Notes: generated by a model from the letters alone, not told the origin. A stretch of DNA of 64,000 bases from Armatimonadota bacterium (GCA_023511795.1 JAIMAU010000004.1:62001-126000); one strand, 5' to 3'; numbered from the stretch's first letter, positions 31,808 through 54,991 are shown. Numbers and translations are program-made.

Positions 31808-34027
31808 CTATGTATTTTGCCTAGCTTCCAACTCCATTCTAACCATCCAAATTAAAGGAAACGCCATGTATAAAAAAGTTGTCGTCGCCATCACAATTCC
31901 CGAATCATTCGTAGCCATTCCTACCACTGCTCCCGCAAGCATCCCAGCAAATGCAGCATTCATCATTGGGTGTTTGAGAAGTGTTCGCTTAAGGATGCCC
32001 ACAGGTCTAATGAACAAGATAACCATTCCCACAATTAGGCAGAAAAACATATAGGTCCAGAATGAGTATTTAATCAATCTTAGGTTCATTGCCCATTTCC
32101 TTAATGCTAACTCTGCCAGTATATGGGGACCTAAAACTTTCGATTGAGTTATTGCCCTTCCAATGTGTGTTTTATGTTCAGAGTCAACCATTACGTTTGC
32201 AATTATGACACCCACAAACAATATGACAGCAACCACAACAACAAAAATAACCATTCTGAGCTTAGGGTGAGAACTATATGCGCGGAGTATCGAAAAGCCA
32301 AAGCCAGCAAGCATGGCCAGCATTCCACCAAAGTTCGTGCCAAAGTTGGGTGCACCCACCACCAATACTACTGCCATAAAAAGCAATGCTACTGGCACTA
32401 TATGCTTCAAGTCCACAAACTTTTTGCGGTCGAGAAAGGAGAAAATACCCAAAATAAACGCACCCATAAGTACGCCAACGGATTCATTGCCAATGCCGTA
32501 GAATCTGAGGCCTATAATAGGGTCATAACCAAAGATCGAATGCTTCGATAACGGTGACTTTGCCAGCATATCGAACATGAAAACTGCGGCCACCCCTACC
32601 CCAGTAACTCCAAAGACGGTACAGGAATCTCTAATTTGGCTTAATACTAATGCCAAAATGAGAGAAGATACCACAAAATAGACTAAAACAACTGAAAATT
32701 TGAAAAGATGAAATGCAGGCGCAAGCAGCAGAATTGCTGGAGAAATTAGACAAGCAAGCATGAGGAATCTCAATCGCGAAGGATAAAGGATTGACCGCAA
32801 TATCGGCAACCCAGGATTCTGCCAAATGACTCCCAGTATACCCATCGCCGTCACGATAATGACAATAGCTATATAGGTAAGAAGTACTGGCCTTCGACCA
32901 TTAAACACTTGCGTTGTCTCTTCATTTAGCTTTTTAACTTGCCCAATGGAATCAGCAACATGCCTTGAAACTATTGGCTGTCCAAGCATACTAGGATGCG
33001 GTTTTATTCCAAAGAACTTTAGAACTGTAGGAGCTATATCGAGATTCGTTATCAAACCGTCTCTTTTTGTAACACTTGAAGTAACAACTCCGGGCGTCAC
33101 GTCTGTGCCAACCATAATTATTGGGGTCAAACGTTCACCATTTGCATACGCGTCCGTATTAGGTGCCGGCACAATAAAAACAAGAAGGTAACGCTCAGTG
33201 GAGGCCTTTAGATACTTGTTTAAATCAACGAGGAAATGAGCGCATCCAGCCGCTGCCAATCGTTTGTAGTACTCGAACCTATTAGGCATGAGGTCCGCGC
33301 CTGCTGCTTCAACTCGTCCTCCATCACCAGCTTCGACAACTACGAACTTATCTCCACTAAGCTCCCGAATGCGATTTAAAATATACGCATAGTTCGTACG
33401 CATGCCAAACGGCCAATGCCCGTCACGGCTGGTTACTTTTTTGCTGACGTCTCCAGTTGAAACAACACCTCGCCTGTTCATGGGAATCATTACGCTTGGG
33501 CGGAACGGAGATGAGCCTCGGTCGGAATTGCCGTAAACAGCCGTTTTCACACCTGCGTCATAGAGAAGTTCGCCAAGAATGCCGGGGATTACATCATAAT
33601 TAAGACCAGAATTGGCGGCAATAACAGCAGCTATTTTAGTTTGGAGTACTGCTGTAGGCTCTTTGAGGCTAAAGCCAGTGTTCCTTTGCCAGATTGTCGC
33701 GGCAGTCTCGCCACCTAGTTTTTCGTTTGCATTTGCTGCGTACCTTGAAAAAGCATCAATCGTTGGACGCTCGAAACCCATTCCACGCGTGCCAGCTCCA
33801 ATGGTAACAGCGTTATCCTCGAAATTTTGACATGCCGCTGTTTTGTTATTCATCAGCCCAACGGCGCCAATGCGAATCAACTGCCTAAACTCTTGAATAT
33901 CCCATCGGAGCATGTCGCTTAAAGACAGCCCTTCGAATGTAACAAGGACGACAGCTTTCCCCTCTGGTTGTGCTGGGTGCACACTTGCGAATAGCAATAT
34001 AATTGATAGCCAAACTAGCCTTTTCAT
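31808..34027 (-). CDS. Alkaline-phosphatase-superfamily-like membrane protein
   Basis: A 739-residue protein in two parts. After a signal segment (MKRLVWLSIILLFASVHP) comes an exported domain of about 350 residues with features of the alkaline phosphatase/phosphoglyceromutase fold: VVLVTFEGLSLSDM, NNKTAACQNFEDNAVTIGAG, VVVEAGDGGRVEAAG, TPIIMVGTDVTPGVVTSS and LITNLDIAPTVLKFFGI. From about residue 388 on there are nine or ten membrane helices with YGIGNESVGVLMG, APNFGTNFGGMLAML and ATNDSGIVMATT as polar motifs. It probably acts on a lipid- or polymer-linked phosphate or sulfate at the outer face; substrate unknown. Its ATG overlaps the stop of the upstream glycosyltransferase by four bases, so the two are translated together. 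Confidence 0.78.
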   Translation of the reverse strand: MKRLVWLSIILLFASVHPAQPEGKAVVLVTFEGLSLSDMLRWDIQEFRQLIRIGAVGLMNNKTAACQNFEDNAVTIGAGTRGMGFERPTIDAFSRYAANANEKLGGETAATIWQRNTGFSLKEPTAVLQTKIAAVIAANSGLNYDVIPGILGELLYDAGVKTAVYGNSDRGSSPFRPSVMIPMNRRGVVSTGDVSKKVTSRDGHWPFGMRTNYAYILNRIRELSGDKFVVVEAGDGGRVEAAGADLMPNRFEYYKRLAAAGCAHFLVDLNKYLKASTERYLLVFIVPAPNTDAYANGERLTPIIMVGTDVTPGVVTSSVTKRDGLITNLDIAPTVLKFFGIKPHPSMLGQPIVSRHVADSIGQVKKLNEETTQVFNGRRPVLLTYIAIVIIVTAMGILGVIWQNPGLPILRSILYPSRLRFLMLACLISPAILLLAPAFHLFKFSVVLVYFVVSSLILALVLSQIRDSCTVFGVTGVGVAAVFMFDMLAKSPLSKHSIFGYDPIIGLRFYGIGNESVGVLMGAFILGIFSFLDRKKFVDLKHIVPVALLFMAVVLVVGAPNFGTNFGGMLAMLAGFGFSILRAYSSHPKLRMVIFVVVVAVILFVGVIIANVMVDSEHKTHIGRAITQSKVLGPHILAELALRKWAMNLRLIKYSFWTYMFFCLIVGMVILFIRPVGILKRTLLKHPMMNAAFAGMLAGAVVGMATNDSGIVMATTTFLYMAFPLIWMVRMELEARQNT

Positions 34028-42472: not shown

Positions 42473-43840
42473 TTAGGGTGCAGTACGGCTGTGGGTACTT
42501 GTAATACCTAACGCCTCCGACATATGAAATATATCACCTGGGGCGGGATGATTGATATCCACGGCCGCTTTAATCTGGTCCCGCTTCTCCCAATATGCCT
42601 GGATAAGCCGGGAATCCAACATGTTTTCAAACACGTTAGCAAACTCACTTTGCGTCTGCGACTTAAAACAAGTAAAATAATCACATAACGCCAGGGTCAA
42701 GAGATACTCATCGGGGGATGATTCAACCTGGGGAGATGCTCGCTGACTACACAGTGCTTCAACTAGGCGAGCAAATGCGCTGTCGCAGGTCCGATATAAG
42801 CTTGGATTTACTTGCTGAATTGCCTCAAACACATCGTCAAAACTGGTATACCAACCGTGATTGTATAGGATTAAAGCAATAATCCTCTCATTTTGCTTTA
42901 TTATATCTGCAGGTAGACTTCTAATCCTAAATATCCCATATGTGCTAGCCACGCTTGAACCATATAACTTTTTAAAGTACTCAAAATCTGACCCACTAGT
43001 TATCTCGGGTACGCCAGCTTGCTTCAACATAGAATATAAAAACAGGTTGGATGAATAACCAGGTGGGACTGTCTTTTCGACTATTATAAACCCATTTCTA
43101 GTGAACCATGAAAGCGCTTGCTCAGCCCACCTACCATAAAAATAGAAGCTAACCATATTTGCTATGCCTTCTTTATAGGTCATTGACATGTCGGGAATAG
43201 CTTCGATGAAGTAATGGTTTTCATCCGCACCATAATAATAGTTGCCATACATATGTGTGCGGTCTTCCGACAAATCCTGAGCATGCATCAATTCATGGCA
43301 AAAAGTCGCAAGAATTGAGCTAAAGTCCGGAAATTGCGAGGTGTCATTTAACCAATATGAACCAAAAGTTATACTGGGCGGGGCGGTATCCGTACCTGCG
43401 TACGAACAAGGCCAAGCATGACCACTATCCAGGCAAGCATCGTACCAAGTGGGGTTTGTGTTTGTGATTGAAGTATTCAAATCGTCAATGAAATATATGG
43501 TAACAGACTTTTCCGTAATACGCAGAAGTCTCTCGATAATATTCCTAAAATGATTGCAATCTGCCCCTGACACTGTGCCTCCACAAGCCGCTTTTATTAT
43601 TTTCCTAAACTTGTCACAAGATTGACCAGTATAAGGTGCGCCCGACCCGCTCCCATCCAACACCTGCTGAACGTTGATACGCTGGGCAGTCCCTGTAGTG
43701 GAATTCGGGTTTGCAACAAAACGGAAATCGAGTTTGCTCTTTATATATTGCACATCAGCAGCCTGCATAACATTCGCAAATATCATAATTAAGCAGACGG
43801 CGAAAAGAACCTTTAAAATTGTTGGCATGTGTTTTTTCAT
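42473..43840 (-). CDS. Exported HExxH metallopeptidase-like protein at the end of the YYxP operon
   Basis: A 455-residue secreted protein (signal peptide MKKHMPTILKVLFAVCLIMI, then FANVMQAA). Residues 179-186 read TFCHELMH: an HExxH zinc motif at 182-186, and MTYKEGIANMVSFYFYGRW supplies Glu224 38 residues on, spacing that suits a gluzincin-type third ligand. I match it to no named peptidase family. Several cysteine pairs (about residues 75-95 and 136-145) suggest disulfides. The ATG overlaps the stop of the preceding YYxP gene by four bases (ATGA) with GGAGG six bases upstream, so it is the last gene of that operon. It may process or anchor the YYxP proteins, as inference. Proteolytic activity is unproven. 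Confidence 0.75.
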   Translation of the reverse strand: MKKHMPTILKVLFAVCLIMIFANVMQAADVQYIKSKLDFRFVANPNSTTGTAQRINVQQVLDGSGSGAPYTGQSCDKFRKIIKAACGGTVSGADCNHFRNIIERLLRITEKSVTIYFIDDLNTSITNTNPTWYDACLDSGHAWPCSYAGTDTAPPSITFGSYWLNDTSQFPDFSSILATFCHELMHAQDLSEDRTHMYGNYYYGADENHYFIEAIPDMSMTYKEGIANMVSFYFYGRWAEQALSWFTRNGFIIVEKTVPPGYSSNLFLYSMLKQAGVPEITSGSDFEYFKKLYGSSVASTYGIFRIRSLPADIIKQNERIIALILYNHGWYTSFDDVFEAIQQVNPSLYRTCDSAFARLVEALCSQRASPQVESSPDEYLLTLALCDYFTCFKSQTQSEFANVFENMLDSRLIQAYWEKRDQIKAAVDINHPAPGDIFHMSEALGITSTHSRTAP

Positions 43841-45936
43841 GATATGCCTCCATTCCCTTGTGCAGATGCTTGGGTGGGCAATTCATCACAGAATATAAAG
43901 TCGTCGGTAGCGCTCTTGCGGCCTGAAGTTATCGTTTGGCCACCTCTAAGCCGCCAAGTTATCTCATAGCTATACTGAAGCTGGTCCGCGGGGTGAATGT
44001 ATTCGAGGGTTTGCGAAAGCTGGCCACTCGCCGGATTAAGCGCTGCTTGCTTTACTTGTTCGACATCGCCAAGCTTATAGAATAACTTCACTGTGATTAG
44101 CCTGACCCCTGTTTGTTGAATTATATTTGGGTCTGCTTCCAAATGTATTGTCCTCTTAAGATAAGGCGGTGTAACCGTAATGGCAAAATTACTGGACTTT
44201 TGCCACCCCATTTCTACCTCCTTGCCCCCGTGGAAACTCCAAACCGTCTTATACTCATAATCCATCCACTTGTCGCGGTCCTTGTCGTCCTTCCAACCAT
44301 ACATAAGCCTAAAGTAATTGCCATTCTGGTTGAAATTTATGCGGTCAATGCGAATCTCGTCGTTAGTCTGAGCGCCTCCTTCGTGGATTTTTCGCAACCT
44401 CACAGCAACATAATTAACATAATTTGCGAAATCGGAGGCGTTCTGGCCATCCAAATAGACGCTTATCTCACGTTGCTTGAAGACAGGATCGTCAAGGTTT
44501 ACTTCAAAGAAATGTCTGCGATCACTCATAAGTTTGGAAAGGTTTCCAATGTTTTCGTCAAATCTAAGCTGTAGGGTATCGGACATATATTTTTTAAAAC
44601 TCATTTGGAACTTGCCAGTTCTGCGAACCTTCTTCATAGTATAGGAGGCAATCAACGAGAAAGAAGGCTCACTTTGTTGTGAGCTTCGCACTGACTGACC
44701 GTCTTGCGTCTCCCTATCTGATACTGGCACAGGTCGCTTTCCCCTTAAGTCTTGGCTTTGGTGTCGCCTAAACGGCCCTGGAGGACGAGCGGGTTCTTGC
44801 TCATCGGAAGAAGTTGCAGGAGAAGTAGTTTGCTCACCTGCAGAATCTGTTTCAGACGTTTCCGAAGACACTTGTTCACTCACGTGAGACGACTGGCCTT
44901 GTTCCAAACGCTGACCACCTTCATCTCCAACGCCGTTCCGCTTGTCCGCCCTAGCAGCAATCATTGTTTGAATCCAATCAAACTGATTGGGAACCAGACT
45001 TGCACCCAAACTCCGAGACTGTTGCCGTTGGGTTCTGAGAAATTCTGAAGCCTTGTCAAGCAATCTGGTTGCACTTCCCTGCTCCGACGCGCTTTCTTGA
45101 ATCTTATCGAACATTGCCTCACAAATCTTACCGTAAGCCATTCCGATTAGCGTATCCATCCTGGCATCTTCGCCTTTGACCACAAGTTTGATAGCACCAG
45201 TATCCCTTAATTCGTCAAAGGCATCGCGGATTTGAAAGCCTAGGTAACTGCTAGCGAAGGCTGTTGAGAAATCTCTGTGGCTATATATTTTCTCCCATTC
45301 AGCCTCCAGCGTTGCATCGTAAGGATTCCGGTAGCCTGCCAACTCCATCTCAAAGGTAAAGCTAATGTCTGGAGTAGCCGTTTTGAAACTTTCCCAGAGC
45401 AATGTTGCCCCCAGCTTGGTAAGCCTAATACTGATTGCCGCTTTTTCACCATCGAGAATGGGTGCGTTGCCTAGCCCAAGTACCTTGGTTGTCCAATCCC
45501 CATTTTCTTGTTGAAAGCTTGAGACTATACCAAACTTTCCGGACTTGAATATGACTGGTCCTGCTATATTGGCACCTGGGATTTTCCGCCTTAGCTCAGC
45601 TTTGGCCTCTGCAAGCTGCTCCTCGGTTGCTCCAAGCTGTACCAAGCAGTGAAGAATTCCACCGCCCTCACCTTCTTCTGATTCCGTTCCACCGGGAGTG
45701 CCTGCAACGTTTTTTACAAACTTAATAAAGCTAAACTGCGGCTTGCCATCGTCACCCACAGCCAAACGCGCTTTGTCCGGTACATAGTAATAGGTTTTAG
45801 GATCGTCGAAATCCTGAAATAAGGTCAATTGACCTGCTTTCACGCTCTTATCTAGGAGAATCTCTTGCCCACAGCCAAACCCAAAAGCTCCAAATACGCC
45901 AACGAGAATTGGAACAATACGAAATATTACTCTCAT
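43837..45936 (-). CDS. YYxP-family exported protein, member C (gene 6 of operon)
   Basis: An exported protein of 699 residues and unknown family. The ATG at 45936 is used (GGAG nine bases before); a TTG three codons earlier abuts the ribosome site. The signal segment ends near GFGCGQE, so lipidation at Cys22 is conceivable. Shared motifs: FDDPKTYYYVP (YYYVP at 49-53), DGKPQFSFIKFV, GGGILHCLV, IAGPVIFKSGKFGIVSS, GNAPIL, then VNLDDPVFKQREISVYLDG and VAVRLRK, DYEYKTVWSFHGG, VTPPYLKRTIHLEAD and YSYEITWRLRGGQ, ending FIFCDELP. Residues of about 320-410 form a Ser/Gln/Glu/Thr-rich low-complexity insertion that its paralogues lack. Closest relative in the array is member D (both end F-DELP). No enzyme motif is visible, so a structural or binding role is more likely. 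Confidence 0.8.
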   Translation of the reverse strand: MRVIFRIVPILVGVFGAFGFGCGQEILLDKSVKAGQLTLFQDFDDPKTYYYVPDKARLAVGDDGKPQFSFIKFVKNVAGTPGGTESEEGEGGGILHCLVQLGATEEQLAEAKAELRRKIPGANIAGPVIFKSGKFGIVSSFQQENGDWTTKVLGLGNAPILDGEKAAISIRLTKLGATLLWESFKTATPDISFTFEMELAGYRNPYDATLEAEWEKIYSHRDFSTAFASSYLGFQIRDAFDELRDTGAIKLVVKGEDARMDTLIGMAYGKICEAMFDKIQESASEQGSATRLLDKASEFLRTQRQQSRSLGASLVPNQFDWIQTMIAARADKRNGVGDEGGQRLEQGQSSHVSEQVSSETSETDSAGEQTTSPATSSDEQEPARPPGPFRRHQSQDLRGKRPVPVSDRETQDGQSVRSSQQSEPSFSLIASYTMKKVRRTGKFQMSFKKYMSDTLQLRFDENIGNLSKLMSDRRHFFEVNLDDPVFKQREISVYLDGQNASDFANYVNYVAVRLRKIHEGGAQTNDEIRIDRINFNQNGNYFRLMYGWKDDKDRDKWMDYEYKTVWSFHGGKEVEMGWQKSSNFAITVTPPYLKRTIHLEADPNIIQQTGVRLITVKLFYKLGDVEQVKQAALNPASGQLSQTLEYIHPADQLQYSYEITWRLRGGQTITSGRKSATDDFIFCDELPTQASAQGNGGIS

Positions 45937-45972
45937 ATACCTCAACTCCTTCCAGGTTCTTGGGTGACATTC

Positions 45973-47859
45973 TTACATTCCAAGCTTCTCTAAAACTCGC
46001 TCAATTGCCCCTGTAACAAGACTTTCTGCTCTCTTTTTGTAAAGCTCCGTGATCAACAGGTCATCTGGTATTGTCGCATAAATATACTCATCACTGACGT
46101 TTGCCACCCACGGACCCACTAGCTTTCCAGCTGTCTTGTGGTTGTAGATAAGCCTATAAGCGTAGTTTTTCTTATCGCGGTCCATGAATATCTTCGCAGA
46201 AACCAGTGGTTCTTTCTTTGTCGGCGATAAATGGATGTTGGTTTCAACTTCCTTACCAAATTGATAATAATGCAATTGAGCCGTACACCTGGTGATATCT
46301 TTCTCCTTCATTGCATCCAAATCGCCCTCGAACTCAATAGTTATAGGACGAACAGGCGGCGTGAGAGTAACACCTTCCCAGCTTCCTTGCATCCATTGTG
46401 GGTTTGCAGGATAGATGTTGCCGCCCTTGAGGCTCCATTGCGCTTGGTATTCGTATACATCGGGATTGGAATCATCTCCACGAGCGTATGTAACAGAAGC
46501 TGTTACACCATTATTTTTAAGATAATTTGCATCAATCGTTACATGGTCTTCAAAGTCCCGACCGCTTGTTCTCTTTTTCCGAACATTAACAGTCACATAA
46601 TTAACAGCCTCATCAAAAATCTCTTTGGCATCAAGGTCGAGAATGAATTTTATGTCTCTATGAGTGAAGAAAGGATCATTCAGGTTTACTGCAGCTACAC
46701 ACTTCGGATTATTCCTGACGCCGTCATACCACTCAGCAAGATTTGCCGTCAGCTGCAAAGTTTCACGATAAGGAAGGCTGTATTTAAGGTACCAAAAGCG
46801 GTCCTTCATTTGTTCCGATTTTGCAAACTTGTAATGACTCATCTTATAGCTGTCACCGCGTACCGCTGGTGCTTTCGGGTCACTGTCGCCCGACTTGTCT
46901 CTATCCTCTTCATTCAGCATTTCTTCAGGGCTTACTTGCTCACTTTCTGCAAAGCTGTTGAGAAAGAATTGGAAGAATGCGTCGCGAATTTTTGCTGTAC
47001 GCTCGTCGGAGATCTTTTCCTTGAAATTCATGACTATAATTTCTTTTTCGCATAAGAAATCAAACATTTGGCGGGTTTCATTGTAAGTATATTTGTGGTT
47101 GCTATTACTACACCAAAATAGGAAACACTTTCTATTGTATTTGTGCTCATATTCAACGGCGAGACTGTCTGCTTGTTGCTGTAGCTTTGACCAATGGAAA
47201 TAGATTGTCCCCTCAACAGCAGGCATCATGGTATAGTATGCTAAGTTGAATGAAAGCGATATGTCGGTTATACTCCGAGATTTTTGGAATGTTGCATCTA
47301 GCAATTGCGCGCCGTTCGCGGTGAGCCTTGCCGCAGCAGCTACTCGCTGCCCAGGCATAAGTGGCGCTTTGCCCGATGTTATAAGAGATTTCGTCAACCC
47401 TTGGTCTGTCAGTGTTGCAGATGTAATCTGAAAAGTACTTGTTTCGCCATCAGGCACAACAGGCGCCGCACCAAGTATTTCCGCCTTTGGTTCTTTCTCC
47501 CTAACAAGCCTCAAGAGCTCTGCTTCCTGGTCTTTCGTGAGACCAAATTCCATCAGGAAGTGGAGAAGCCCCCCTTTTATTCCTCCAGCTTCCTCCCTCT
47601 GCTCTGTTGTAAATTTTAGAAATAGAAATTGGGGCGTGCCATCCTCCTTTGTTGCAAGATGCAAGTTCGTTGGCAAGTAATAATACTGCGGTTTCATCTG
47701 GGTTGAGGACTCCGATTGCAACAATGTTACCGCTGTCCCATCCGACAGGGTTACAGTTTTCCGCCCTTCATACATCATCCCTGCGGAGCACTGAAATGCA
47801 ACAATCAAAATAACCAAAATTGTAATAATCCCTGCAAACAGAATCTTCGTTTTGCTCAT
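45973..47859 (-). CDS. YYxP-family exported protein, member B (gene 5 of operon)
   Basis: A 628-residue exported protein with signal peptide MSKTKILFAGIITILVILIV. It carries the same plan as its neighbours: QYYYLP at 58-63, EDGTPQFLFLKF, GGLLHFLMEFGL, ILGAAPVV, SGKAPLMPGQRVA, then VNLNDPFFTHRDIKFILDLD, VTVNVRKK, YEYQAQWSLKGG and TPPVRPITIEFEGD. Differences: a long insertion with paired cysteines (KCFLFWCSNS) and an extended C-terminus after YIYATIPDDLL with a helical tail TELYKKRAESLVTGAIERVL. Function unknown. GGA before the ATG is a modest ribosome site. The 274-codon open frame on the opposite strand inside this gene is a shadow. Confidence 0.8.
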   Translation of the reverse strand: MSKTKILFAGIITILVILIVAFQCSAGMMYEGRKTVTLSDGTAVTLLQSESSTQMKPQYYYLPTNLHLATKEDGTPQFLFLKFTTEQREEAGGIKGGLLHFLMEFGLTKDQEAELLRLVREKEPKAEILGAAPVVPDGETSTFQITSATLTDQGLTKSLITSGKAPLMPGQRVAAAARLTANGAQLLDATFQKSRSITDISLSFNLAYYTMMPAVEGTIYFHWSKLQQQADSLAVEYEHKYNRKCFLFWCSNSNHKYTYNETRQMFDFLCEKEIIVMNFKEKISDERTAKIRDAFFQFFLNSFAESEQVSPEEMLNEEDRDKSGDSDPKAPAVRGDSYKMSHYKFAKSEQMKDRFWYLKYSLPYRETLQLTANLAEWYDGVRNNPKCVAAVNLNDPFFTHRDIKFILDLDAKEIFDEAVNYVTVNVRKKRTSGRDFEDHVTIDANYLKNNGVTASVTYARGDDSNPDVYEYQAQWSLKGGNIYPANPQWMQGSWEGVTLTPPVRPITIEFEGDLDAMKEKDITRCTAQLHYYQFGKEVETNIHLSPTKKEPLVSAKIFMDRDKKNYAYRLIYNHKTAGKLVGPWVANVSDEYIYATIPDDLLITELYKKRAESLVTGAIERVLEKLGM

Positions 47860-47902
47860 TGCTTTCCATCCTTTCCTTTTGGACTATATCATAACAATCG
47901 CT

Positions 47903-49630
47903 CTATCTCGGCAACTCGTCTACAAATATAATGCCACTAGTATCGGCTGTCAGTGGCTTTGTTACTTCACTTCCATCGTTTAACCCCCACCTAACCTCAT
48001 AATCATAGCGATATTCTCCTTTAGGTTGGATTACAGCAATCCTTTCCTCAATTGGCTCGTTCTTAACCCTAATTAACAGTTGCCTACTCTTCGGTTTGCC
48101 AAAAAAGTCGTATACCAACTTAACTACGCAGTACTTAACCCCTGTGTTCTTCATTGCTTGTACATCGCCTTCGATTAATATCTCACGCCTTTCATAGGGA
48201 GGCACGACATTTATCATAGGAGAACTTGTTTTGCGCCATGCTTCTTCCAGCATTGCGCCATCACGAAAACTCCACTTTACGCGATACTGGTATTCAAGCC
48301 ATTTAGCTCTATCATTGTCGCCATTCCAGCCGTATACAACCGAGAATTTGTTTGCTTTCTGTGCGAATGTATCCCTATCTACTACTACCTCCCCTACCGT
48401 AGAATTGCCATTTTCATGTTGTTTCTCGATTGTCACAGTAACGCTGTTAATATACTTGTCAAAGTCCTCAAGGAGGCTACCATCAACACTAACAAACACC
48501 TCTCTCTGGGAAAACATTGGGTCGGCTAGATTGACTGCTTTGAAGTATTTTTCATTGCCGCCGTATTTCTTGTAGAGGTCACCTATGTTAAAACTAATCA
48601 GCGCTATTCGCTTTGACACTGCTTGGTGGCTGAAATTAAGCACAGTATGACCGCTTGAAGATATCTCTTTCAGCCTGTATGAACCTGTTAGCGAGAAATA
48701 AGAAGAACCACTGCTTGACCCACGTGTGACTAACTTCATCAACGAATCAAGAGCATTTTCTTGTTGAGAAGGCGGTGGCGGCTCTTCGACTCTTGTAAAA
48801 AGTAGATCAAGCAACTTGCTATAAACAGTATTCAGTAGTGCCTCAGTCGGGGCATGTTCTCCTCTGCTAATCAACTTAATTGCATTGTTTCGCATCAGAC
48901 GCTGGAAAGCGAGGTCTACCTCCGCGCCAATACAATAGACTTTCGCTCCTGCTTTAAATTGCTGATCCTTCTGCACCTCGCTCCAATCAATGTCAACTGT
49001 AGCGTCATATGCGTCGCTGAGACCCTCAAATTGCATTTCAAAAACGACTGAGACATCGGGATTAGCCATTTGAAAACTGTTGTAAAGTATTTGAGCACTT
49101 TGTTTATCAAGGTTGAACGAGACAGCTATTTTATTCCCCTCAAGAACTGGGGCATTTCCTGTTGCAATCATTTTCCGCTTCGCGTTATTTTCGCCATTCA
49201 GTGCATCAATCGTTGCCAAAGAAGAAATTATTGCGTATCGTCCGGAGGTGAATATTACTGGTCCTCTCAGCCTGACTTCTTCATCATCGAGAAGCTTCCT
49301 AAGCTCAGCCTCCGCTTTCGAAACTTGTTCTTTTGGAGTTCCGTATTCTGCAAGGAAATGAAGAACACCGCCTCCTGCCGCCTCTGTGATTGTGGTGGAG
49401 TCCTCAGAACTCGACTTTATGTTTTCGACATAGCGCATGAAGCTAAATTCAGGTCCACCATTCATGTCAATGCTTAAGTGACCATCGGCTGGGATATAAA
49501 GATATTCCTTTGGATTCGTAACGAGTGGAAAGCACCACAATCCAGCTACTCGAACTGCCCTATCAATCAGTATTTGCTGGGCATGGCATGCGATTGTAGT
49601 AATTGCAAAAACAATGACTAGATAAAGCAA
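47903..49630 (-). CDS. YYxP-family exported protein, member D (gene 4 of operon)
   Basis: A 575-residue exported protein. The only in-frame conventional start is a TTG at 49630, with no ribosome site; the frame stays open upstream to a stop overlapping the end of member A, and those codons (FQRFRLCFWTPFLL) would extend the signal peptide with positive charges. Motifs: TNPKEYLYIP (43-47), GGPEFSFMRYVENI, GGGVLHFLAEYG, LRGPVIFTSGRYAIISS, TGNAPVLEG, then VNLADPMFSQREVFVSVDGS, VTVTIEK, WLEYQYRVKWSFRDG, VVPPYERREILIEGD and YDYEVRWGLNDGS, ending IIFVDELPR. Most like member C. A Ser/Gly-rich linker (GSSSGSSYF) stands in the middle. Function unknown; the product should be periplasmic or extracellular. 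Confidence 0.78.
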   Translation of the reverse strand: MLYLVIVFAITTIACHAQQILIDRAVRVAGLWCFPLVTNPKEYLYIPADGHLSIDMNGGPEFSFMRYVENIKSSSEDSTTITEAAGGGVLHFLAEYGTPKEQVSKAEAELRKLLDDEEVRLRGPVIFTSGRYAIISSLATIDALNGENNAKRKMIATGNAPVLEGNKIAVSFNLDKQSAQILYNSFQMANPDVSVVFEMQFEGLSDAYDATVDIDWSEVQKDQQFKAGAKVYCIGAEVDLAFQRLMRNNAIKLISRGEHAPTEALLNTVYSKLLDLLFTRVEEPPPPSQQENALDSLMKLVTRGSSSGSSYFSLTGSYRLKEISSSGHTVLNFSHQAVSKRIALISFNIGDLYKKYGGNEKYFKAVNLADPMFSQREVFVSVDGSLLEDFDKYINSVTVTIEKQHENGNSTVGEVVVDRDTFAQKANKFSVVYGWNGDNDRAKWLEYQYRVKWSFRDGAMLEEAWRKTSSPMINVVPPYERREILIEGDVQAMKNTGVKYCVVKLVYDFFGKPKSRQLLIRVKNEPIEERIAVIQPKGEYRYDYEVRWGLNDGSEVTKPLTADTSGIIFVDELPR

Positions 49631-49688
49631 TAAAAAAGGCGTCCAAAAACATAATCGGAAGCGCTGAAAACTTTAGCTTTTCCCATAC

Positions 49689-51482
49689 TCAACTTTGGGC
49701 CTCCTGCGAAGGCGGAATAAGCACAAAGTAGGTTTCTTTTGTTTCGCCGAGATCCTGCACAATCTTCCCACCATCTTTGAAGTACCAGGTTACTTTGGCC
49801 TTGACTTTTGACCCCTTATCCAAATACAGTGTGACTTGCGAAGTACTCTCGGTATCTCTTGCTCTAAGAGTAACCCTCGTTCTCTTTGGCTCGCCAAGAA
49901 CAGGATATTCGAAAACCAGATTCGCGCTAATAACGCCCTTATCGTTGAATAAACCGCGGTCGGCATCTACTTCAATAACCTGCTTGTCGAATGGTGGTAC
50001 CAAGCTAATTGCCGGGTCGTTGGCTTTTAACCACTTAGTTGGGTCAGATGGAATGCTTATGGTATCGCGATTTCGCACACTCCACATAACTTGATATTCG
50101 TAATCAAGCCAGCCTGCATCTTTTTCGCCTAGTCGAGGATATGTTACCTCTTGCACCAGCTTTCCATCCTTAACGTTTTCATGGCTAAAACGCAAAGTGC
50201 TTGTAAACTCAGGATTGTCACCTATTTTCTTTCTTACATTCACCGCAACAAAATTGATAGCGTCACTGAAACTACTTGCAAAGTCGCCATCGACCTGAAA
50301 GTAAATTGTTCGGAACTCGAAAGCTGGGTCTCCAAGGTTTATAACGCGGAAATACCGGGGGTCGTCTTTCAATGCATCATAGAGCCCTCTAATATTGCCG
50401 GCTGTATTGACGGGCACTTTCACAGTGGAGTTCTTTGTAAGGATTACTGAAAAGGTATTTTGACGAATATCCTCACGTTTCTTCATCACGTATTGATTGT
50501 CCGTATAATATTTCTGGTCACCAGTTCCTGTGAAAAGCCTTGCAAGCCACCCCTTCGATTGACGACCTGCAATTTGACTCTGCTCTACAGCAACTTCACG
50601 CGGCGGATCTGCCGAGAAGCCAGTTTTTGCATCAAACATTAGTTCAATAATCTTGTTTGTAATCGTATCGACTAACGACTGAAGATCCCCAACCTTAAGG
50701 TCCAAAGCCTTTGTCCTATCAAGCACCTCTACTTTGATGGTGCCGTTCCGTCGAAGTTCATCAACAATGTCGCGAACTTGCCGCCTGGTGTAATCTTGTT
50801 GGACGTTGATTACCTTAGAAAAGTGGTTATAGACAGTAGTAACGTCAGCTGTAATCCGAGCATCAAAGCCCACTACTGCCGCCTCGTAGTATGCATTAAT
50901 GCCAATCGAAACATCAGATGTGGGGCCGGATAAAGAATCCCATAAAAGGGTAGCACCTTGCTGATTTAGAACTGCCGCCACAGCCGCACGGCTGCCGGGC
51001 GTGATGGGAGCTCTTCCACTTGTAACTACCTTTCGCGTAAACCCGCCTACATCGCTCAACACCGCCGATACTACTTCGAAGCTACCTGGTTCATCCTCTC
51101 CCTCAGCAGGTTCTGCCTGCATTAGCGGAACAGGACCCACAATTTTCGCGTCCGGAATGTTTTTCTTTAGCTCTTTATCGAGTTCGGCGACTACTTCGGC
51201 CGGCAGGGTAAACTCGACCAATGCATGAAAAAGGCCGCCCCCTGTCTTGCCTGCCGGGTCAACATACTTTAGGCACAGAAAGGCTAGCGTCCCATCCTCA
51301 TTCACGGCAATTCGGGGATAAGTAGGCACATAATAGTATGACTTTGGATCGGCATAGTCCTGAAGTAATTGAACCCCATTAATCATCATTCTGCCTTCGT
51401 CCATTTTTACCAAGGCATAACCAGAACTACAAAAAATCACTAATACAACTACCACCAGGCAAAGTATATGGATTTTTGTCAT
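49689..51482 (-). CDS. YYxP-family exported protein, member A (gene 3 of operon)
   Basis: A 597-residue exported protein with signal peptide MTKIHILCLVVVVLVIFCSS. The ATG at 51482 has GGAG seven bases upstream and overlaps the stop of the preceding gene (ATGA); a longer frame upstream is not supported. Motifs: YADPKSYYYVP (YYYVP 49-53), NEDGTLAFLCLKYVD, GGGLFHALVEFTLP, IVGPVPLMQ, VTSGRAPITPGSRAAVA, then INLGDPAFEFRTIYFQVDGD, VAVNVRKK, WLDYEYQVMWSVRN, LVPPFDKQVIEVDAD and VKAKVTWYFKDGG. The two C-terminal modules each end in a Y-x-Y or V-x-V strand, a tryptophan strand and a turn with Gly, as expected for tandem beta-sandwiches. No catalytic motif. Function unknown. Confidence 0.8.
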   Translation of the reverse strand: MTKIHILCLVVVVLVIFCSSGYALVKMDEGRMMINGVQLLQDYADPKSYYYVPTYPRIAVNEDGTLAFLCLKYVDPAGKTGGGLFHALVEFTLPAEVVAELDKELKKNIPDAKIVGPVPLMQAEPAEGEDEPGSFEVVSAVLSDVGGFTRKVVTSGRAPITPGSRAAVAAVLNQQGATLLWDSLSGPTSDVSIGINAYYEAAVVGFDARITADVTTVYNHFSKVINVQQDYTRRQVRDIVDELRRNGTIKVEVLDRTKALDLKVGDLQSLVDTITNKIIELMFDAKTGFSADPPREVAVEQSQIAGRQSKGWLARLFTGTGDQKYYTDNQYVMKKREDIRQNTFSVILTKNSTVKVPVNTAGNIRGLYDALKDDPRYFRVINLGDPAFEFRTIYFQVDGDFASSFSDAINFVAVNVRKKIGDNPEFTSTLRFSHENVKDGKLVQEVTYPRLGEKDAGWLDYEYQVMWSVRNRDTISIPSDPTKWLKANDPAISLVPPFDKQVIEVDADRGLFNDKGVISANLVFEYPVLGEPKRTRVTLRARDTESTSQVTLYLDKGSKVKAKVTWYFKDGGKIVQDLGETKETYFVLIPPSQEAQS

Positions 51483-52639
51483 TGTTCGTCTCCTAAATTT
51501 GAACTTTCGGAAGGCTTTGGTAGTTCTTCCGAAGGCGTTGTAACGTCTAACATCTGTGACCATGGCTTGCCAAGTTGCCAAGGTTTGATTTTCTCTTCGC
51601 CACTCGCTGTAATCTCGCGAATCCTGTATACATAAGGTTCCTTTAGAGAAACGGCAAATTTAAAGCGAACTGTGGCAGAATATATATCTGGCGTTGATTT
51701 TGAGAAAGTTACCATAGCGGTTAACGGCTTTCCCGTGATAGATTTCGCTTGGATTTCAACTACTTTCTCAAATAGGTCAGGGCGAAGCGAATTATTGAAA
51801 TCATAGCAATAAACAGAGAGTGCTGCATAATTAGCTGGCACGCTTTCATTAATATCAATCTGCTTGAATATGTTCGGGTATTTCGCGGCATCAACAGTTA
51901 CGGACACCGCATCTGCTAAAACTATATAGGGGTCGGGTTTTGGCTTCTCAGCCTCGCTTGATTCTTCATCGTGATTAATGTCAATATTTCCCTCAACCTG
52001 TGGGGTTTCTTGTTCCGAAGCGATGCCTTCAGCATAAAAAGCATAAGACAGGCTCAGTATCACTCTTCCCGCCTGCAATGCATCCCAAAGGGCTTGGCTA
52101 GTCAAATCATCAGGAGCTATTGTAAAAATGCGCTCGCTCCAATAACCCTCTCCAGGAGCCGTGCCTTCGACATTTTCCAACGAACCAGCTCCGATAACTG
52201 AGGACTTAGAATCTGAAGCAAGCTCCTCGCGAGGTTGGTCAACTAAACGAGTATAGTTTAGCAGGGTTTCTACTTTGCGAATCGGCAGTGGTCGAAGATT
52301 TGGCACAGATACGCCTTGAGTTCCGAGCTTTGCCTTCACCAACGCAATTCTTTTTGCTTCGATTGACGCCATCTTGACTCGAAAGCTGAGAATGCTTTGG
52401 GTGCGGAACTCCCCTTTGTCGCCTGAAACACTAGTGCCCATATACCGCATTTGCAAGAAGCTAATCTCAGGTGCCCCACTAGCATCAACGGGTATTAACA
52501 ACTTCCCCGGCGCATAATAAAAGATTGAGGGATTCACACTGTCGGGGTAGATTCGAACTCCATCAATTTCTTGTGGCCTCCCAAGAAGTGGAACTGCCAC
52601 CGACCAGGCATCCGAGATCAGCAAAAGAAGAATGGTCAA
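51479..52639 (-). CDS. YYxP-domain exported protein, member E (gene 2 of operon)
   Basis: About 386 residues from the TTG at 52639. It shares the N-terminal module of the array (SVNPSIFYYAP, ASGAPEISFLQMRYM) and then diverges, with a beta-rich middle, an acidic stretch (HDEESSEAEKPKPD) and a final VYRIREITASGEEKIKPW strand pair. The start is uncertain. The natural signal peptide would be IIKRLSAFLTILLLLISDAW, but its first codons are ATA-ATA-AAA with no ATG, GTG or TTG; TTG 52639 falls inside it, and the next conventional start upstream is a GTG at 52780 with a good AAGGAAGG site but a 121-base overlap with the gene before. Its stop overlaps the start of member A. Function unknown. Confidence 0.68.
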   Translation of the reverse strand: MTILLLLISDAWSVAVPLLGRPQEIDGVRIYPDSVNPSIFYYAPGKLLIPVDASGAPEISFLQMRYMGTSVSGDKGEFRTQSILSFRVKMASIEAKRIALVKAKLGTQGVSVPNLRPLPIRKVETLLNYTRLVDQPREELASDSKSSVIGAGSLENVEGTAPGEGYWSERIFTIAPDDLTSQALWDALQAGRVILSLSYAFYAEGIASEQETPQVEGNIDINHDEESSEAEKPKPDPYIVLADAVSVTVDAAKYPNIFKQIDINESVPANYAALSVYCYDFNNSLRPDLFEKVVEIQAKSITGKPLTAMVTFSKSTPDIYSATVRFKFAVSLKEPYVYRIREITASGEEKIKPWQLGKPWSQMLDVTTPSEELPKPSESSNLGDEQ

Positions 52640-52659
52640 GAATGCACTTAGGCGTTTTA

Positions 52660-54828
52660 TTATCCTTGGGTAGCTGGTTGCTCGGCAGGCGCGGGCGATT
52701 CGGGCATCGTTGGTACTCCTATAATTGAACGAAGCTGTGCCGAACCCACATAAATCGTTAGGTTGTTCGATTCCGTCCACGTTGTACCTTCCTTTGTGGT
52801 GCCATCGGGATTGACAACCGTCAGCTTGTATTTAAACAAAGGATCTCCTGGTTTTTCTTCGCCAGGTTGTCGATTTACTAGGTAAACTGGGCCAACTTTG
52901 AAGCTTGTTCCATCTTGGGTCAATTCAAGAGTCTTCACTATTTCTCCCGACGCATTCGGGTCAAAATACTTAGAAGATACGCTCACAAGCACTAGCGCTA
53001 CCCCAGTGTCAGCCAACGGAGTCAAAGTGCGGAAAGTAATCTCAGACTGAGTAATGGAAGTCACGCCGCCAGTTACAGCTTCGATTGCTTTTGCGGTAGC
53101 ATCCTGGTCGTCTGCAATCAAGGAATAATCTACCCACATTTTGAGCGCTGTTGTATCCAGCCACGATGGCACTTTGTGAGCTTCAATAGTAGCGCTTGCC
53201 CCGCTGGGAACAATTGTGTCAGCTAGTTCATAACTATAGACAACAGGTGACTCCCCAGGCACAAGAACGTTGAGATACTTTATTTTTGCAGGGAAGAAAG
53301 ACGCATTCCTGAACTTCACACCACGAGCAAACTGCCTGGTTCCAAAAGAATGTTTATCTGCAAACTTTATGAGAATTGGAATGGTAACCTCAAGTGAACC
53401 ACTACCTGAGCTTGAAGCAGATTGATATGTTACCGTTCCGCTTACCCCAAGGCCTTGGGTTAAAACCATTTGCAAGTTTTCTTTTGTAACTGGGTCTGTG
53501 GTCAGAGAGATATCAATCATACCAGCAATATCACTAATCCCAGTCACGCTTATTCGCTCTGGTGGAATATTATACTGCCCCAAATCGCCTTTCAGCGAGA
53601 CCCACATACTGCTGAAGGGGAATGGTTTAAGATCTCTAAACTTTCGTGAAGTGCTTTCGCAATACTTCTGAAGCAACTTTCGAATAAGAGCAATATCCGA
53701 TGGGTCCACGCCTGACGTTAGGCGCGCGGCTATTGACACAACATTTGCATTAGACTCACCGGTTGATACTCCGTAAAGCATGCAGAGTGCGTATCCTGTA
53801 TCTTCATCCCAATATAGATAGTAACCACGCGGAAGATAATAGAAATAACCCGAGTCGGGGTTCGCATCCTCGTAAATATTGGAGTGTAGGTCCATTATAT
53901 CCTCAGCGGTCAATCCAATATCAGAAGATAAAGTATCGAAAAGCCGTATTGCATTGGTGCTTGGACCTTGCCCATTGTTGTCTTTCACGTCTTTCGGCAA
54001 TCCCATAACCAAGTTTGCTGCTTTCAATCCAGCAAGGGATGGGGTTATCTTTATTACTGATGTGGTGCTCTCAGTACCACCAATATTTGATGGCGGACGC
54101 GGAGTCACATCTTTAGAGATTGTTTGTACTACAGGTTGAAGCTTGTCGACTGCAATTTTGGGACCTGACGAGCGCCCATCACCAACCGGTCTGAGCACCG
54201 GATTCGCTGTTACAAAAACCTTTGGATTGAGTACAAGGCTCGGTCCGCTTCCGGCAGTAAGCGATTTGCTTTTCCCAATAGGCTCTGCAACTACCTTAAT
54301 TATCATCTCTTCGGGTGCAAGGCTCTTCTCCCATTTTTTATTGCACTGGAAGACCTTGATAGCAGCTTTTTTAAAATCACCTTCCTTGCCTATCGAGACC
54401 ACGAGAAACGATTGGTCAAATTGTGTTCCGCGGGCGACATTTGCCCCTATTTGCAGCTTTATTGTAATTTCCCCTTCGGTTGCGGTTAGAACTGTTTTCG
54501 ACGTGCCTACTTCTTTTAAAGTCCTTCGTTTACCATCCTCAGCACTTACTATTAGAAACATAGCCTCAGTGGTTTCTAACTCTTTGTAAGCTACCCTAAC
54601 TACTAAGGAATCTGCTCGGTCCTCAATAACTTGGACGCCCTCAATCTGTGCTTTCTTTGTTGAAAGAAGTTCACGCGCAAGATCCGGAAGCGCTGTGCTT
54701 TCCTTGAGAGTCACCCCTTTCAACCCACTGAAGTTGTCAGGGGTAGCACAAGAAACCCTGGCACCCAAAAGCGCAAAAATAATTCCTAGGAAAGCACAGG
54801 GAGCTGGGGAGCGGAAATACGACGGCAT
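52660..54828 (-). CDS. YYxP-domain exported protein, member F (gene 1 of operon)
   Basis: A protein of 722 residues and the first gene of the operon. The ATG at 54828 has AAGGAGG nine bases upstream. A signal or anchor segment (CAFLGIIFALLGARVSCA) is followed by about 290 residues of beta-rich sequence not shared with the others, with a Pro/Ser/Thr-rich linker, then the array's module: NPDSGYFYYLPRGYYLYWDE (FYYLP at 329-333). The second half resembles none of the four core paralogues closely; it contains a GVSGTVTYQSASSSGSGSLE segment and strands such as TLELTQDGTSFKVGPVYLV and FKYKLTVVNPDGTTKEGT. The C-terminus is proline-rich (PTMPESPAPAEQPATQG). No enzyme motif is seen. It is preceded by a consensus promoter. 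Confidence 0.75.
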   Translation of the reverse strand: MPSYFRSPAPCAFLGIIFALLGARVSCATPDNFSGLKGVTLKESTALPDLARELLSTKKAQIEGVQVIEDRADSLVVRVAYKELETTEAMFLIVSAEDGKRRTLKEVGTSKTVLTATEGEITIKLQIGANVARGTQFDQSFLVVSIGKEGDFKKAAIKVFQCNKKWEKSLAPEEMIIKVVAEPIGKSKSLTAGSGPSLVLNPKVFVTANPVLRPVGDGRSSGPKIAVDKLQPVVQTISKDVTPRPPSNIGGTESTTSVIKITPSLAGLKAANLVMGLPKDVKDNNGQGPSTNAIRLFDTLSSDIGLTAEDIMDLHSNIYEDANPDSGYFYYLPRGYYLYWDEDTGYALCMLYGVSTGESNANVVSIAARLTSGVDPSDIALIRKLLQKYCESTSRKFRDLKPFPFSSMWVSLKGDLGQYNIPPERISVTGISDIAGMIDISLTTDPVTKENLQMVLTQGLGVSGTVTYQSASSSGSGSLEVTIPILIKFADKHSFGTRQFARGVKFRNASFFPAKIKYLNVLVPGESPVVYSYELADTIVPSGASATIEAHKVPSWLDTTALKMWVDYSLIADDQDATAKAIEAVTGGVTSITQSEITFRTLTPLADTGVALVLVSVSSKYFDPNASGEIVKTLELTQDGTSFKVGPVYLVNRQPGEEKPGDPLFKYKLTVVNPDGTTKEGTTWTESNNLTIYVGSAQLRSIIGVPTMPESPAPAEQPATQG

Positions 54829-54962
54829 TGGGCTATACCTCCTTGCTAGCATGCCATACTCTCAACGGTAGCGGCTCACTCACCCTAGTGTAGTCTATGA
54901 ACGCTAATCTAATAATGGCAAGTCCCAACACCGCCGAGAGAGGATTTTACCTTGTAAGAATA

Positions 54963-54991
54963 ATTATAGGTTTGTGAAAAATAAATGTCAA
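54963..54991 (-). promoter_or_regulatory. Consensus sigma-70 promoter of the YYxP operon
   Basis: On the minus strand TTGACA (54986-54991), exactly 17 bases, then TATAAT (54963-54968): both hexamers and the spacing are perfect. Transcription would start near 54956, giving a leader of about 128 bases before member F. It is the best promoter match in the window and implies high basal transcription of seven exported proteins. Confidence 0.85.

Follow-up and report, generated by a model that had tools for sequence, protein, structure and literature searches.

What is built by seven adjacent genes whose products all appear to be exported and match no recognised protein family? The question is raised by a gene cluster on the minus strand of an Armatimonadota bacterium (GCA_023511795.1, JAIMAU010000004.1:62001-126000), in a stretch of 64,000 nucleotides referred to here as the window, where open reading frames A to G form a compact unit running from position 54828 to 42473 behind a single promoter. 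The genes recur as an ordered set in a few species drawn from five or more phyla. This pattern points to a machine of the envelope or the extracellular space, not described before, that is passed between bacteria as a unit. The conservation of gene order across phyla, the distinctness of the subunits and the lack of a match to any curated family or fold are together a strong sign of such a machine. The best explanation, held tentatively and at slightly under even confidence, is that the products of A to G form a single exported assembly, in which the targeting subunit varies and a hydrolase acts as partner, and that its genes move horizontally as a cassette.

The seven proteins and their shared module

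Searches with A to G against Pfam, NCBIfam, PHROGs and PADLOC returned only sub-threshold matches at chance level, with none above a curated cut-off, and neither sequence nor profile searches matched an entry in the PDB. A literature search limited to open-access full text found the gene set described nowhere; an earlier mention elsewhere is possible. The initial annotation had called the family unrecognised and proposed profile-profile and structure-prediction searches as a check. These were run, the structure searches with D; the core proteins matched no well-described family at high confidence, and as far as the tools used reach, the family is undescribed.

Four of the proteins, C (49689-51482, 597 aa), D (47903-49630, 575 aa), E (45973-47859, 628 aa) and F (43837-45945, 702 aa), are mutually homologous, full-length paralogues (profile-profile probability 100%). 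Their shared N-terminal module was delimited by alignment in C (50613-51410), E (46933-47781) and F (45088-45864) and was modelled alone in D (48776-49576, 267 aa); in F, a long low-complexity linker separates it from a beta-rich tail. Gene B, which consists of this module and a short tail, is linked to C through F at a probability of 96-98%, while gene A (52660-54828, 722 aa, exported) has a weaker profile link, to B only (probability 87%, E 4e-6), and contains the module in diverged form. A YYxP-type motif and a DG.P.FSF-like strand, which had been claimed for six of the proteins, are present in A to F, with FYYAP in B (52522-52508) and YLYIP in D, but A has them in a weaker form (YFYYLP at residue 328, 53847-53830). 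Because the architecture recurs across phyla, it is not a product of chance.

The AlphaFold model of D, built from an alignment of 68 sequences, has a predicted local distance difference test (pLDDT) score of 84.9 and comprises the N-terminal module, a low-confidence linker (residues 287-313) and a C-terminal beta-rich part that can be read as two immunoglobulin (Ig)-like domains. All of C to F have this three-part layout, with a linker that is flexible. Modelled alone, the N-terminal module of D scored a pLDDT of 82.2 and had no Foldseek match in the PDB at E<=0.001, the template modelling (TM) scores among the listed matches being at most 0.22 by query length. With the whole of D, Foldseek returned many Ig, A2M and adhesin entries, some at fair probability, and also cytolysin entries; their TM-scores of about 0.1 over a multi-domain model give no fold to the N-terminal module. 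A fold search of BFVD with D gave only TM-scores below 0.2 by query length. The pore formers of the MACPF/CDC group were considered, since pneumolysin and intermedilysin are among the weak Foldseek matches of D. This candidate was rejected: D has no Pfam match, its TM-scores to them are only about 0.1, and neither protein was listed when the N-terminal module was searched alone.

The layout of the cluster agrees with that described in the initial annotation. All seven genes lie on the minus strand, with four-base overlaps between B and C (ATGA) and between F and G (42473-43840, 455 aa) and gaps of 58, 43 and 27 bases between C and D, D and E, and E and F, respectively. Upstream lies a sigma-70 consensus promoter (54963-54991, minus strand; TTGACA at 54991-54986, N17, TATAAT at 54968-54963), which had been predicted and matches at 12 of 12 positions. 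It is the sole 12/12 site among the 20 promoter-like sites of the region, the total number of which is not above the shuffle level. The N-termini of all seven products are strongly hydrophobic (12-residue means of 2.5-3.9, a crude leader score), in agreement with the export signals claimed for them.

Two start sites in the cluster are irregular. Gene B, which overlaps the end of A, extends from 51479 to at most 52780, and neither the window nor the sister species has an in-frame ATG near the end of A (52560-52780). The first candidate start codon is a GTG at 52780; translation of B begins in an unusual or coupled way. Around the start of gene D (49600-49700), a run of T is one base shorter in the window than in the sister species, six against seven. 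This puts the upstream ATG out of frame, and the leader, now shorter, starts at an internal TTG. The six-T run is either real or a homopolymer assembly error.

Conservation and probable movement across phyla

The sister species carries the set at about 95% identity, and two genomes of another Armatimonadota class have the same genes in the same order, one with all seven (G254) and the other with B to G, where a short contig ends (G255); gene E is 55-57% identical to its orthologues in another class of the phylum. A scan of approximately 85,000 species genomes with E found at least 19 loci in Gallionellaceae, Armatimonadetes, Candidatus Eisenbacteria, Bacteroidota and Kiritimatiellae, a lower bound because the scan used two short peptide patterns. 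Genes A to F are all present wherever the contig is long enough (at one locus B would lie past the available stretch). The order A-B-C-D-E-F(-G) is kept in Gallionellaceae, Eiseniibacteriota, Armatimonadota and Flavobacteriaceae, while other Bacteroidota have C-D-E-F with A and B moved behind F. The search for conserved synteny suggested in the initial annotation thus found that the homologues do occur together in other phyla.

A tree built from 78 core proteins recovers a separate, phylum-spanning clade for each of C, D, E and F (support 99-100), which indicates that the subunits diverged before the cassette spread. The co-occurrence of the four core paralogues in conserved order as separate orthologous clades supports the earlier proposal that a set of diverged paralogues is expressed together. 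Within the C clade, a Gallionellaceae protein groups with one from Armatimonadota, unlike the species tree, and this grouping would fit horizontal transfer. An origin of C and E, and of D and F, by tandem duplication of a two-gene unit was also considered. The split CE|DF is supported by the tree, for which the program, however, issued a long-branch warning, and in HHalign E is no closer to C than F or D is; the pairing of C with E was dropped, and only the kinship of F with D, its closest paralogue, was kept.

The distribution is sporadic. Counting the genome used as the centre of the comparison, the cassette was found in 4 of 291 Armatimonadota, 5 of 47 Eiseniibacteriota, 1 of 395 sampled Bacteroidota and 2 of 398 sampled Pseudomonadota genomes, one of the latter with a divergent leaderless form. 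Each of 14 genomes examined has one cluster, with an extra F-type copy elsewhere in the two Eiseniibacteriota; in some Bacteroidota, F and E are duplicated and A is split. The fixed order, the single cluster per genome and the fusion or splitting of A favour an assembly. When an empty insertion site was sought within the family, a single relative was found to have both flanking genes, and these are on separate contigs. The Kiritimatiellae copy (L050 5978-14233) is decayed, with several stop codons and two transposase genes inside it.

Variable edges and leaderless relatives

While the scaffold is constant, variation sits at the edges of the cassette, in the N-terminal part of A and in the hydrolase slot. 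The N-terminal part of A is a ricin-type lectin in Flavobacteriaceae (two loci scanned; 2e-59); in Aquimarina spongiae and Lacihabitans it consists of DUF7452 in three copies (5e-71 and 1e-61). In Armatimonadota, A is one protein, whereas in several Bacteroidota it is divided into two or three genes with the N-terminal part separate.

The initial annotation identified the seventh product as an HExxH protein, and G indeed contains HELMH (43297-43283) followed by YKEGIA (43177-43160), whose glutamate is invariant in the alignment; together these form a putative zinc site (43160-43297, minus strand). The gluzincin-like combination of HExxH and a conserved downstream glutamate is found in G and its orthologues outside Flavobacteriaceae, and G is predicted to be a metallopeptidase of no known family. 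Proteins of the HExxH...E type occupy the G position in Armatimonadota, Eiseniibacteriota, Gallionellaceae and several Bacteroidota. In four Flavobacteriaceae loci, however, the G-like protein lacks HExxH and the scaffold is intact, and two other Bacteroidota clusters contain an astacin-papain protein (astacin with Peptidase_C70). The idea that G processes the scaffold consequently gained no particular support; a role as partner or cargo of the scaffold would fit at least as well and is preferred here to one in its maturation.

Further proteins accompany the cassette in some lineages. Between a short E-like gene and E lies the gene for an exported protein of some 230 aa whose GH.GIA and NCADF motifs are conserved (L039 9226-9924, with orthologues in nine Bacteroidota loci); it has no Pfam match and may be a permuted papain-like hydrolase. 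Downstream of the Eiseniibacteriota cassettes (L035 15385-22069, L047 15349-21620, L107 1-5650), two more large proteins are encoded; one has a CARDB domain, and the other weakly matches an outer-membrane barrel.

Arrays of several genes that match the family profiles also lie on two alphaproteobacterial plasmids, one from Pararhizobium and one from Paracoccus, and in a further genome of the Pseudomonadota, G758 (L084 9722-26786; L085 1-22865; L104 8926-19900 with L105 3-6345). The best match was 107.7 bits, on a plasmid protein, and another search gave E 9.7e-31. These proteins begin directly with the module and, to judge from the missing leaders, are apparently cytoplasmic. The Paracoccus array adjoins a phospholipase-D-like (PLD-like) protein, EAD1-trypsin and EAD1-AAA proteins and a STAND-like ATPase, and the G758 array adjoins an Amidase_3 protein and a NAL1-type trypsin-fold protease. 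The theme that recurs is that of related scaffold subunits encoded next to hydrolases. As an observation in their own right, leaderless arrays beside hydrolases and a STAND-type ATPase are a possible candidate for an unreported conflict system.

In several Bacteroidota, the cassette adjoins genes for an ECF sigma factor, a TPR protein and a TPR-CHAT protein. Aquimarina has two diverged cassettes in opposite orientation beside the same flank of sigma, TPR, CHAT and further genes (L036 16818-22550, L046 16757-22214, L051 2-6169), with sigma factors 80% identical, and this flank is likely an exchange hotspot at which cassettes appear to replace one another at a resident locus. A functional link of the CHAT and sigma genes to the cassette was considered and set aside as positional only, since such genes are numerous in these genomes. 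Elsewhere in the window, a 739-aa minus-strand open reading frame (31808-34027) has a four-base overlap with a glycosyltransferase gene and no Pfam match.

Competing explanations and significance

In the mechanism that we propose, the products of A to G would be exported by the Sec pathway to the periplasm or beyond, where C to F would build a hetero-oligomeric scaffold through their N-terminal modules, to be capped by B and A. The exchangeable N-terminal part of A, whether ricin-type lectin, DUF7452 or a domain of its own, would bind the target, a glycan surface for example. The scaffold would have as its catalytic partner or cargo the hydrolase, which is likewise exchangeable (G, or the astacin-papain protein in relatives), and the cassette would spread horizontally. 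The function that we consider most likely, as a hypothesis, is that of a hydrolase-bearing, target-binding particle directed against other cells or surfaces, perhaps antagonistically. Extracellular toxin particles are exported scaffolds that combine targeting and enzymatic parts. The Streptomyces umbrella toxin particles (PMC11062931) resemble the cassette at the level of this idea only, as exported multi-subunit scaffolds with targeting and enzymatic parts; the cassette differs in having six related subunits and no recognised polymorphic toxin or immunity gene.

Several points weigh against this explanation. The hetero-oligomeric assembly of A to F is itself something that we infer, and no member of the family has a functional annotation. 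No type A or B C-terminal sorting domain of the type IX secretion system (T9SS) was found with NCBIfam in eight Aquimarina cluster proteins, which leaves export across the outer membrane unsupported. A further point is that the G-like protein has lost HExxH at four Flavobacteriaceae loci at which the scaffold persists. EAD and STAND neighbours occur at a single leaderless locus, and the CHAT/sigma triad is present in many copies in the Bacteroidota genomes concerned, so that its position may be partly due to chance and a regulatory link is only suggested.

The strongest competitor, though less probable, is that the proteins form a hetero-oligomeric envelope or cell-surface structure, such as a layer, stalk, sheath or adhesin, with no role in attack and with G trimming or maturing the scaffold. 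Such a structure would be consistent with the Sec leaders, the beta-rich Ig-like C-terminal parts, the lectin on A in Flavobacteriaceae, the HExxH protein that ends the operon in most loci and the weak outer-membrane barrel match downstream in Eiseniibacteriota. The persistence of the scaffold despite the loss of HExxH, the astacin-papain enzymes inside two other clusters and the existence of leaderless arrays all argue in the other direction, and so sporadic and horizontally spread a distribution would be unusual for a basic part of the envelope. The glycan uptake (SusCD) loci and T9SS cargo of Bacteroidota share with the cassette that they are exported, partly lectin-bearing and in some cases beside an ECF sigma factor. 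Unlike them, the scanned proteins have no SusC, SusD, TonB or T9SS sorting-domain match, and the cassette also occurs in phyla without T9SS.

It is improbable that the family is a conflict or defence system in which the module serves as a protease-activated scaffold or effector array with cytoplasmic (leaderless) and exported branches. The neighbours of the leaderless Paracoccus array (EAD1-trypsin, EAD1-AAA and STAND-like ATPase), the trypsin-fold protease and amidase beside the G758 array, the caspase-like TPR-CHAT genes beside several Bacteroidota cassettes and the sporadic spread would all suit such a system. However, no EAD, STAND or CHAT gene was seen beside the window cassette, no EAD or STAND domain was among the Pfam matches of A to G, of seven window neighbours or of further flanking proteins, A to G match no PADLOC model, and exported proteins would be unable to sense intracellular phage directly. 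The likeness to the EAD/STAND conflict systems (Kaur et al. 2020, PMC7159879) is limited to the neighbours of that one Paracoccus array, whereas the window cassette is exported and has no EAD or STAND genes; the text of that paper does not contain the terms 'secreted', 'signal peptide' or 'Paracoccus'. Less probable again is a set of exported paralogues that act independently or redundantly and have only the operon in common. The duplication of E and F and the splitting of A in some Bacteroidota could be read in this way, but single genes would then be expected to be lost or scattered, and the four subunit classes remain distinct across phyla and still occur together and in order, with none found alone outside Eiseniibacteriota. 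A phage-derived or tailocin-like particle, whose structural proteins would be rich in beta-sandwich folds and to whose tail and baseplate proteins D shows a weak Foldseek resemblance, is largely refuted. TM-scores are below 0.2 by query length, there is no PHROG match, searches of viral contigs and phage records yielded no relatives, and the proteins carry Sec leaders; a phage tail, tailocin or contractile injection system was rejected as a candidate, no tail, sheath or baseplate homology having been found.

The exported assembly with exchangeable targeting and hydrolase parts remains the preferred explanation. We are slightly more cautious about the broader possibility that it represents a new class of machine, characterised by an obligate six distinct subunits, a new N-terminal fold, exported forms (in at least five phyla) as well as leaderless ones, interchangeable targeting domains and hydrolases, and a cassette that moves between phyla. 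The analysis defines a structural target of six subunits and a hydrolase for which cultured hosts exist, several relatives being present in named strains (Flavivirga jejuensis KACC 14158, Aquimarina spongiae DSM 22623, Dawidia soli and Emticicia sp.). Whatever their function proves to be, the families deserve names and models in public databases, and the occurrence of exported and leaderless branches near different hydrolases could connect envelope biology with bacterial conflict systems.

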